Positions 14,980 to 57,853 of a DNA stretch of 64,000 nt are shown one piece after another. The first letter of the stretch is position 1; each line of letters begins with the position of its first letter. A model generated the notes under the pieces. That model did no database searches. It was not told the origin of the DNA and saw only the letters and a program-made list of their open reading frames with translations. The DNA is taken from contig NZ_CP156660.1 in NCBI RefSeq assembly GCF_039851975.1, positions 806,001-870,000 on the forward strand. The letters are read 5' to 3'. Source of the DNA: Desulfoscipio sp. XC116. Its GTDB lineage: Bacteria > Bacillota > Desulfotomaculia > Desulfotomaculales > Desulfallaceae. The position numbers were made by a program, and so were the translations under genes.

Positions 14980-15264
14980 TTGCTATTGTCCCTCCACTTT
15001 GACAAAAGACATATTCATCGATAAGAGGGGGGAAAATATTAATATATCTTTTTAGTATCATTTTCTCCCGCAACCTGGCAATCATTGCGCTGCAGATAAT
15101 CTTAAGCGCTTTAGACCCATGGCTTTGCGCCCTAATCTTTCGATGTAGTTTGCCTTTGTGAAACAGATATTAAAAATAAATTAAGCATATTATATAACTA
15201 TAAGGTTACATATTTCAACAAAAATAAACCACTTGTATGCATCGTAAAAAATTGAGGTTTAGAA

Positions 15265-15600
15265 ATGATTAAAAAGGTTGTTGGCAAAAATATAAAGCTC
15301 TACAGGATTCAAAAAGGCTTTTCTCAAACGAAAGCGGCCTCTTTAGTTGGCATTACACCTGCCTATTGGGGGTACCTGGAAAGAGGACAGAAAAATCCTT
15401 CTGTAGAGCTCGTTGCTATAATATCGGAAGTCCTTGGTGTTAAAGCAAGCTTGCTTTTTGTTGAATCAGCAGAGAATTTATCAGAAGAGCTTATACTTTA
15501 CCTGCATATGGTAAATGACATGGGCAATCAACACATAGGTTTTATATTAACTATAATTAAAGCCTACGTTGACTTATGTAAAGGTCTATCTACGACATGA
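15265..15600 (+). CDS. XRE-family helix-turn-helix regulator
   Basis: A 111-residue protein. Residues about 5-65 form a Cro/CI-type helix-turn-helix (NIKLYRIQKGFSQTKAASLVG, GYLERGQKNPSVELVAIIS). The C-terminal 45 residues are helical and lack a known domain. It stands alone, downstream of an AT-rich 285-bp gap that carries the promoters of both this gene and the divergent c-di-GMP operon. Target unknown. Confidence 0.85.
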   Translation: MIKKVVGKNIKLYRIQKGFSQTKAASLVGITPAYWGYLERGQKNPSVELVAIISEVLGVKASLLFVESAENLSEELILYLHMVNDMGNQHIGFILTIIKAYVDLCKGLSTT

Positions 15601-15801
15601 ATTACAGCTCATGACTTGCAATAACTTTCTTAAGAAAGTTATTCTATTATCTATGGATATTATCAATTGCTGTTGTTCCGAATCATTTAATTCTCCCCAG
15701 TCTTTTCCGGACAGGGCTTTCTCAATAATAGATTCAATTTGCTGCCGGGAAAAACCAAGTGCTTTCATTTTTAATTTAATGTTGTTGAGTTCCTCATGCA
15801 C
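15586..15801 (-). CDS. Small helical protein, unrecognised
   Basis: A 71-residue charged protein (EELNNIKLKMKALGFSRQQI...) that ends in CNSCRR. It starts at GTG 15801 with AGGAGAG nine bases before it. Its 3' end overlaps the convergent XRE gene by 15 bp. Helical, without signal or membrane segment. It could be a small regulator or partner of the XRE protein. Confidence 0.55.
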   Translation of the reverse strand: MHEELNNIKLKMKALGFSRQQIESIIEKALSGKDWGELNDSEQQQLIISIDNRITFLRKLLQVMSCNSCRR

Positions 15802-15857
15802 TATAAATCACTCTCCTGCAATTCTAAAAAGGAGTTCCCGTAAAAGGAACTCCTTTT

Positions 15858-15933
15858 TGGTGGGCTATGAAGGAATCGAACCTTCAACCTGACGATTAAG
15901 AGTCGCCTGCTCTGCCAATTGAGCTAATAGCCC
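15858..15933 (-). tRNA. tRNA-Lys(CTT)
   Basis: Complete cloverleaf with encoded CCA: acceptor GGGCTAT/ATAGCCC, D-arm GCTC...GAGC, anticodon loop CTCTTAA (anticodon CTT), T-loop TTCGATT. A T-rich hairpin lies just downstream. Confidence 0.95.
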
Positions 15934-15952: not shown

Positions 15953-16029
15953 TGGCTGGGGCGGCTGGATTCGAACCAACGAAATGCCGAAGTCGCCAGC
16001 TCGGTGCCTTACCGCTTGGCGACGCCCCA
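15953..16029 (-). tRNA. tRNA-Gln-like tRNA with 8-nt anticodon loop (function uncertain)
   Basis: Acceptor TGGGGCG/CGCCCCA with discriminator G and encoded CCA, D-arm GCCAAGCGGTAAGGC and T-arm GTTGGTTCGAATCCAGC are almost identical to the normal tRNA-Gln(TTG) at 35861-35935. The anticodon arm differs. CCGAG (16004-16000) pairs with TTCGG (15991-15987) and leaves an 8-nt loop, CTGGCGAC, instead of 7 nt. Counting from U33 the triplet would be GGC (Ala codons), or a quadruplet GGCG. The variable loop also has six instead of five bases. It could be a frameshift-type tRNA, a recoding tRNA or a decaying copy. Confidence 0.7.
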
Positions 16030-16032
16030 GTA

Positions 16033-16128
16033 TGGAGGGGAGAAGTCGGAATTGAACCGGACTCCCACCTGGGTTGCAGGCAAGCCAACGGGTTTGCAGC
16101 CCGCGGGGGGACCATCCCCTTTCTCCCC
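16033..16128 (-). tRNA. Noncanonical tRNA-Cys(GCA) with SelC-like architecture
   Basis: A 96-nt tRNA. The acceptor stem is 8 bp (GGGGAGAA/TTCTCCCC) with discriminator U and encoded CCA. The D-arm is GGGGA-TGG-TCCCC with a tiny loop. The anticodon stem GCGGG/CCCGT carries loop CTGCAAA, anticodon GCA. A long variable arm of about eight pairs (CTTGCCTG/CAGGTGGG) follows, then a T-arm with loop TTCAATT and one bulged or mispaired base. Normal tRNA-Cys has a 7-bp acceptor and a short variable loop; 8-bp acceptor and long arm are features of tRNA-Sec. U73 and GCA are the main Cys identity elements. It is the first of three tRNAs in this minus-strand cluster. Confidence 0.8.
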
Positions 16129-16344
16129 GAAACATATTAACATAAAATTATTAAATAAATCAAATAAACAATTTTTATGAAGTTTGTTTAGGTGATAAAG
16201 ACGGTGTATTGGAGGAACACCTTTTGACGATTTTGCCTGGTAATTCTAATATCTTTGGGGAAATGCCTTCTTGGGGGCTTACCGTGCAAGAGAAGTGGTA
16301 TAATGAAAATATCAGTATAATATGGCTTAAGAAGGTGTATATAA

Positions 16345-16551
16345 ATGTTAACCAAGGATATGACTATCCTTGATTTGGCCGAGAAGCATCCCGAATCATT
16401 GCAAGTTTTTAAGGCTTACGACCACTGTTTAGATGTTTGTATTTGTTGTGAATCACTTTTTGAAACATTGGAGCGGGTATGTGACAAATACGGTATTGAT
16501 TTGGATAAATTGATGACGGAAATAGATGAGGCTATTCAACTTAACTCATGA
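16345..16551 (+). CDS. DUF1858-type small cysteine protein
   Basis: A 68-residue protein of the DUF1858 (hybrid-cluster-associated disulfide domain) type: TKDMTILDLAEKHPESLQVFKAYDHCLDVC, then a CICC pair and a distal Cys. The family is small, soluble and found in anaerobes, with conserved cysteines thought to form disulfides or bind metal. AAGAAGG precedes the ATG, and TATAATAT-like elements occur around 16300-16325. Physiological role unknown. Confidence 0.75.
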   Translation: MLTKDMTILDLAEKHPESLQVFKAYDHCLDVCICCESLFETLERVCDKYGIDLDKLMTEIDEAIQLNS

Positions 16552-39524: not shown

Positions 39525-39713
39525 TTCGATAATAATTAACCCGGCAGTACGTTTTTATCTTTCGACCAATAACTTATTAATTGGCTAAATAGGGCTGTGA
39601 TTATGTTATAAAACGAGATATTTTGGCAGAATGACCATTTAGTTGTTTGACTATCTAAAATCAAAGGCATAAAATAACATGGTAAGCCTTATTAAGGGAG
39701 GCGCATAAAAATT

Positions 39714-39836
39714 TTGTCACCGAATTCCCGTTGTGGGAAACGGGGGAACCACTTTGGGGGTGAAATGCAAATTTGCATGGGGCTAACACTTCGGTCCCAA
39801 CCCGTCAGCTAACCTCGTAGGTGTGGAAAGTGAGGC
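39714..39836 (+). ncRNA. c-di-AMP riboswitch (ydaO/yuaA type)
   Basis: The region carries the conserved features of the ydaO motif: CGGGGGAACC, GGGGGTGAAAT, GGGGCTAACACTTCGGTCCC and AACCCGTCAGCTAACCTCGTAG before GTGTGGAAAGTGAG. It ends four bases before a cell-wall hydrolase gene, the commonest target class of this riboswitch. The longest conserved block is quoted in two parts only by description; identity is recognised by pattern. Confidence 0.85.
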
Positions 39837-39839
39837 ATC

Positions 39840-57393: not shown

Positions 57394-57707
57394 ATTTTTA
57401 CAATCCCCCTTTCCTCTAAATTTGTAAATTTAACCTTTATTCTAAAGGTCACCAGGCCGGAGGTGTTTTTCCCGGACCTGTAATAGAACAGCTCCTTGCT
57501 CCAGGGTTTTAGCACTTAACAAAAAATGAGCTTAATCAAATATATGCTTGACAAGTGAAAAAAGTGAGAAAATTGTTCATAGACATTCATGCCGCTATGC
57601 GGTTTGGGATTGCTTTGCTTGCGCCCGCAATGACAGTTGCCATTTTACCTAAACGCTTGCGTTATATAAAAGCTTGCAATATAATAAAAAAAACCAAATA
57701 TTTATTA

Positions 57708-57853
57708 GCGCTAGGGGTGCCCGGAAAGTCCGGGCTGAGAGGGGCCGCACTGAGAAGAGGCCTAAACCCTTGAACCTGACCTGGATAATACCAGCGGAGG
57801 AAAGCGGCAGAAATTGCACTTATCCCTTCCAACCTGGAAGGGATTTTAGTTTA
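57708..57853 (+). ncRNA. TPP riboswitch with terminator platform
   Basis: The thi-box aptamer has TAGGGGTGCCCGG, CCGGGCTGAGAGG, CCTTGAACCTGACCTGGATA and ATACCAGCGGAGGAAAG in order. ATCCCTTCC (57822-57830) and GGAAGGGAT (57836-57844) followed by TTT form the terminator. It lies 127 bp before thiC and should switch it off when thiamine pyrophosphate is plentiful. The region 57394-57707 holds no gene. Confidence 0.95.

Follow-up and report, generated by a model that had tools for sequence, protein, structure and literature searches.

A selC*-type tRNA-Cys (tRNA-ReC) in Desulfoscipio sp. XC116 and its candidate operator in common with selenium genes

What is the role of a tRNA which is built like tRNA-Sec but carries the anticodon and the discriminator base of tRNA-Cys? 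Such a gene was located at 16033..16128 on the minus strand of the window, the whole 64-kb stretch of DNA analysed here, which belongs to a 4.26-Mb genome (G000). ARAGORN called it as tRNA-Cys(GCA) with boundaries of exactly 16033-16128 on the minus strand; the identification as a tRNA-ReC (selC*-type tRNA-Cys) was made together with Rfam, an alignment with covariation and a family covariance model. The GCA anticodon is located at 16097-16095, U73 at 16036 and the encoded CCA at 16035-16033, all on the minus strand. The best Rfam model for the short stretch was tRNA-Sec (43.8 bits, E 9.8e-8, slightly below its gathering score of 47), and the general tRNA model was not preferred. The original prediction had described a SelC-like build (8-bp acceptor stem, long variable arm and very small D-loop) combined with a GCA anticodon and a discriminator U as Cys identity elements; its coordinates and description were right, and ARAGORN, the Rfam tRNA-Sec model and covariation agree with that build.

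The acceptor stem is composed of 8 bp (GGGGAGAA/UUCUCCCC), the D-stem of 4-5 bp enclosing a very small D-loop, UGG(U), and the variable arm of 8 bp (CUUGCCUG/CAGGUGGG). The anticodon arm, GCGGG-CUGCAAA-CCCGU, contains a 5-bp stem ending in a terminal G-U pair, and the T-stem, GU[C]CGG/CCGAC, comprises five pairs and one bulged C, the bulge being kept in homologues. By free energy, acceptor stems of 8 bp and 7 bp were hardly separable (-40.4 vs -39.5 kcal/mol), and the stability of the fold was not unusual against expectation (z -1.4). Covariation did separate them. Through an alignment of 36 sequences, found with the window tRNA as the query, 97.3% of the cells were paired under the drawn structure, a figure that is favoured because the window sequence itself served as the template for the drawing; this does not explain the double-sided changes, found in 56 cells over 18 pairs compared with 13.2 (sd 4.3) in shuffles. 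Pairing fell to about 62% when the partner column was shifted by one. Among the homologues, A-U, G-C and U-A are all seen at the eighth acceptor pair. The 8-bp acceptor is therefore preferred, the canonical 7/5 cloverleaf is not the better fold, and the covariation shows that the structure is under selection.

The window tRNA is a member of the selC* tRNA-Cys class, alias tRNA-ReC, a name reportedly given by Vargas-Rodriguez et al. in 2018 along with tRNA-ReU for a UCA derivative of Pelotomaculum. One member belongs to Desulfotomaculum nigrificans, which is placed in the same order as the window organism. The gene has the 8-bp acceptor, long variable arm, single bulged T-stem base, U73 and GCA of the class, and coexists with canonical selC and tRNA-Cys. 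A canonical tRNA-Cys would have a 7-bp acceptor, an unbulged 5-bp T-stem and a short variable loop, and none of these was found. From bacterial tRNA-Sec (selC), with which it has the 8-bp acceptor, the very small D-loop and the long variable arm in common, it differs by GCA and U73 instead of UCA and G73, by the T-stem bulge and by the score below gathering.

That Cys-anticodon, SelC-like tRNAs had been noted in surveys was stated correctly in the original prediction: the passages of a review that treat the selC* class of Mukai et al. (NAR 2017) give this tRNA-Cys a SelC-like structure, U73, GCA and a one-base T-stem bulge, in Firmicutes and others (PMC7609411). The same passages describe a T-stem of four pairs with a bulged A51a, an occurrence in anaerobes and some members with UCA (PMC7609411), whereas the window T-stem has five pairs and a bulged C. 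The allo-tRNAs, as outlined there from the same survey (Mukai et al. 2017), are also characterized by a non-7/5 acceptor domain and a long variable arm, but their acceptor domain measures 12 bp and their identity is that of Ser, not Cys.

The tRNA-ReC of D. nigrificans is likewise a tRNA-Cys with GCA and a tRNA-Sec-like structure in a Sec-using host. In the account given by PMC11415595, which cites Vargas-Rodriguez et al. (RNA Biol 2018), it is delivered by SelB and decodes the Sec UGA with Cys; that account also reports it as not interacting with EF-Tu. The decoding activity was reported for that member, whereas the window copy is known here from its sequence and is likened by description. 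The function had been called unsettled in the original prediction, which proposed delivery of Cys or Sec at Cys codons, perhaps through SelB. With the activity on record for the relative (PMC11415595), the function is not wholly unsettled; the SelB route is plausible and in line with the reported delivery, but Sec UGA rather than Cys codons is probably what the tRNA reads, because the D. nigrificans member was reported to decode Sec UGA with Cys.

Both ordinary counterparts, a canonical selC (UCA, G73) and a canonical 7/5 tRNA-Cys, were found elsewhere in the genome. SelB was revealed in one copy over the cut-off (G000:C1:1702898), not near the tRNA, and SelD is itself a selenoprotein with an in-frame Sec UGA within SGUAAKI. 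From SelB and this selD we conclude that the organism uses selenocysteine, as had been predicted. No second selB was found beside the tRNA, in contrast to the delta-proteobacterial selC*-selB*-cysS* operon of Syntrophobacterales/Desulfobacterales, and no second CysRS without anticodon-binding domain was evident among the ORFs adjoining the tRNA.

With the family covariance model, 71 of the order's 113 genomes were found to have a copy of at least 68 bits, with no more than three in any one genome, and roughly eight other families in the phylum also have copies; most of the weaker matches were canonical selC. A scan of named genomes with a GGTCC pattern (most copies have AGTCC) gave five records, including Peptococcaceae relatives and Desulfovirgula thermocuniculi, which shares its order with the window organism. 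Four sister species (G002-G005) contained no copy, so the tRNA is dispensable. Every tRNA-bearing genome found in a phylum sample has SelB, compared with 262 of 398 overall, an association that is suggestive only and weak when counted by about nine independent families. SelB is nearly universal within the order.

The genomic contexts were read from 88 copies with flanks. Directly upstream of yedE, the putative selenium transporter gene (TIGR04112), we found 23 copies in 22 genomes, at a distance of 19 to 240 nt and in the same orientation, usually with yedF following; one copy, in a genome of another order, is arranged as yedE-tRNA-yedF. The yedE genes commonly end in a TGA stop, for which read-through was entertained but discarded, because this TGA sits inside the overlapping yedF start. 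In family f7 the gene directly upstream of the tRNA encodes a LysR protein of the "selenium metabolism-associated" family. Between saoC, the product of which ends in Cys-Cys, and saoX lie six copies, all of family f8; five of the six have UCA and A73 and coexist with canonical selC, and the remaining one has GCA and U73. In the third setting, which is that of the window, tRNA-Lys(CTT) comes after the copy, in some cases together with a small conserved ORF. Some copies adjoin a double-cubane-cluster reductase gene and that of its activase, and some adjoin genes resembling, by eye only, hdrA and mvhD.

In the window organism itself, a decayed ReC-like tRNA was detected just upstream of yedE (G000:C1:1109200-1109330; L191:3223-3321). 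It scored 27.4 bits with the family model and contained many broken pairs and no intact 3' end; an intact counterpart exists at the same place in a sister species. The window copy scored 110 bits with all helices intact and stands in a tRNA cluster far from yedE. As a role confined to yedE in cis predicts the opposite, this argues for a tRNA acting in trans.

The Cys identity elements and the CCA are invariant across all GCA/ACA copies. U33 is not strict, with C33 in five copies (L083, L112, L126, L145 and L161) and A33 in L143, and two copies (L084 and L089) have the anticodon ACA; an absent U33 and an ACA anticodon are unusual for tRNAs decoding on the ribosome. Relatives with UCA and A73 or G73 (L098, L148, L154, L156, L163, L147 and L150), which we take to be probably of the published tRNA-ReU type, are mostly inside the sao cluster. 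Their genomes also carry canonical selC, and the encoded CCA is not strictly kept in them.

Upstream of the window copy, a likely -10 box (TAATAT) was read at 16134..16139, five bases upstream of the tRNA start, and a candidate operator, CTTCATAAAAATTGTTTATTTGATTTATTTAA, is located at 16151..16182 with its core ATAA-N7-TTAT at 16178-16164, all on the minus strand. This operator was the top-scoring site of the whole 64-kb window, and its core is common to most ReC copies, yedE genes and the organism's own selD. A small DUF1858 / hybrid-cluster-protein-associated redox disulfide protein is encoded divergently from the tRNA at 16345-16551 (plus strand), and its gene may share the promoter region with the tRNA.

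Downstream, and also on the minus strand, the second tRNA of the cluster (15953..16029, ARAGORN) resembles tRNA-Gln in its body, with U1-A72 and G73, and has an anticodon loop of 8 bases (CUGGCGAC); ARAGORN gives the anticodon as ggcg. Its counterpart in a same-genus genome (G006) keeps the 8-base loop but has a shortened T-arm, so the gene is probably a decaying tRNA-Gln. It is followed by the tRNA-Lys(CTT) at 15858..15933 (ARAGORN and homologue flanks), a recurrent neighbour of ReC copies in this context, and by an inverted repeat, AAAAAGGAGTTCC...GGAACTCCTTTTT, read from the sequence at 15828..15859 and likely the terminator of the tRNA cluster. The small ORF of 71 aa at 15586..15801 is conserved downstream of ReC and tRNA-Lys in the genomes of several relatives and matched no family of Pfam or NCBIfam. 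The window further contains riboswitches for c-di-GMP (15066-15164), c-di-AMP (39708-39839) and TPP (57703-57819).

The operator motif, ATAA-N7-TTAT-N7-ATWA, was found by expectation-maximisation in the upstream regions (110 nt each) of 77 non-redundant copies, with a log-likelihood ratio of 502 at width 32 compared with about 105 in shuffled sets. When each copy was scored against its own shuffles with its own family left out of training, 69 of 83 copies reached p <= 0.05, the window copy among them. The window site (16182-16151) scored 15.7, while the upstream regions of 55 other tRNAs of the genome scored at most 5.5 and those of three canonical selC genes below zero. The sao-cluster copies are without the motif, as expected for copies inside an operon. 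In an independent test, the motif was carried at p <= 0.02 by 14 of 20 yedE genes which are unlinked to the tRNA and were outside the training.

The genome of the window organism was scanned with a simple pattern instead of the full motif. The genome gave 15 matches and the control 8, so that an isolated site carries little weight unless it belongs to selD or DUF169. One match precedes selD by about 240 nt, and two that overlap each other lie ahead of a DUF169 gene in the vicinity of yedE. Between operator and start codon, the selD leader (L239:1260-1530, minus strand) includes further repeats beside a strong hairpin, TTCTAAAATTCA...TGAATTTTAGAA, and is possibly a regulatory leader.

Which regulator might read this operator? 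On the basis of gene context, Lin et al. (2015) put forward YedE and a LysR_Se regulator, listed DUF169 among the yedE associates, and described the archaeal orthologue HrsM as repressing Cys-isoform hydrogenase genes when selenium is available (PMC5322559). LysR_Se is therefore the natural candidate, and two LysR_Se genes were found in the genome, at G000:C1:1556511 and G000:C1:3496032. Judging from the adjacency in family f7 and the LysR-like shape of the site, LysR_Se probably reads the candidate operator; the motif precedes LysR genes in only a few genomes. As the window tRNA has the operator motif of selenium genes, we lean somewhat towards placing the ReC genes in a selenium regulon, in which a LysR sensor would control the tRNA, yedE and selD, and the meaning of the Sec UGA would shift between Sec and Cys with the selenium supply.

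Taken as a whole, we hold with good confidence that tRNA-ReC is charged by CysRS, carried by SelB and inserts Cys at Sec UGA codons, acting in trans under an operator common to selenium genes and with expression following selenium. It is likely to serve as a safeguard that responds to selenium and places Cys at Sec-UGA codons. By analogy with the D. nigrificans relative, CysRS would recognise the window copy by U73 and the GCA anticodon and attach Cys to it; the 8-bp acceptor and the long acceptor/T domain would exclude EF-Tu and allow SelB, which would carry Cys-tRNA-ReC to SECIS-bearing Sec UGA codons, where Cys would be inserted despite the G34-A3 mismatch. SelD and other selenoproteins would be made in Cys form when Sec-tRNA is short, and an operator common to yedE and selD, probably read by the selenium-associated LysR, would let expression follow selenium status; the identity of the regulator, the sign of its control and the physiological role are what we infer. 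Counting against decoding, GCA does not pair properly with UGA, and C33 or A33 and the two ACA anticodons are odd for a decoder.

The same anticodons would suit an extra tRNA-Cys isoacceptor reading UGU/UGC codons through EF-Tu (or SelB), perhaps for Cys-rich selenium proteins: GCA goes with U73, the two ACA homologues still read Cys codons, and the products of genes neighbouring the ReC copies are Cys-rich. We regard this as unlikely, since an ordinary tRNA-Cys is already in the genome, the D. nigrificans member is reported, in the account cited above, without EF-Tu interaction (PMC11415595), and the anticodon variants do not follow how the neighbouring genes use UGU and UGC. Conversion to Sec-tRNA and insertion of Sec at Cys codons has a precedent in Aeromonas salmonicida, where a SelC-like tRNA-Sec bearing the GCA anticodon is described as delivering Sec at Cys codons (PMC11415595), and the tRNA here has a SelC-like shape. 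That tRNA is a true tRNA-Sec which carries Sec, but the window tRNA has Cys identity elements, and as its discriminator is U73 instead of G73, it is an unlikely substrate for SerRS and, in consequence, for SelA; this explanation is hardly credible.

The yedE-linked copies, by their position and orientation, and the loose U33 could also fit a tRNA-like leader controlling the gene behind it in cis, or a tRNA with a role outside translation. The window copy, however, has its own promoter in a tRNA cluster far from yedE, the yedE-linked copy of this genome is the decayed one, and the identity elements and CCA do not vary among GCA/ACA copies, which makes such a role quite improbable. The relic before yedE, the lack of a copy in G002-G005 and the decayed look of the neighbouring tRNA-Gln-like gene might suggest that the window gene is a non-expressed pseudogene as well, but its helices, identity elements, CCA, operator and -10-like box are all intact, it scores far above the relic, and the spread of the family through the order and the selection on its structure speak for a functional gene; we consider a pseudogene very improbable.

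The reading as a Cys-inserting tRNA under selenium control is thus preferred. The tRNA class and its basic activity are already published. A literature search found no link between selC*/ReC and yedE; as far as checked, the selenium-operon context of the ReC genes and the operator common to selenium genes are new, though part of this may already appear in the original class papers of 2017 and 2018. Neither was visible to the original prediction, which was drawn from one window. The shared motif and the gene neighbours make it directly testable when and why the class is used. If the model is true, selenium starvation would change the level of the tRNA and the Cys/Sec ratio at the UGA codons of selenoproteins, and a coding change set by a nutrient, with a mismatch between codon and anticodon, would offer a clean example of conditional recoding in nature.
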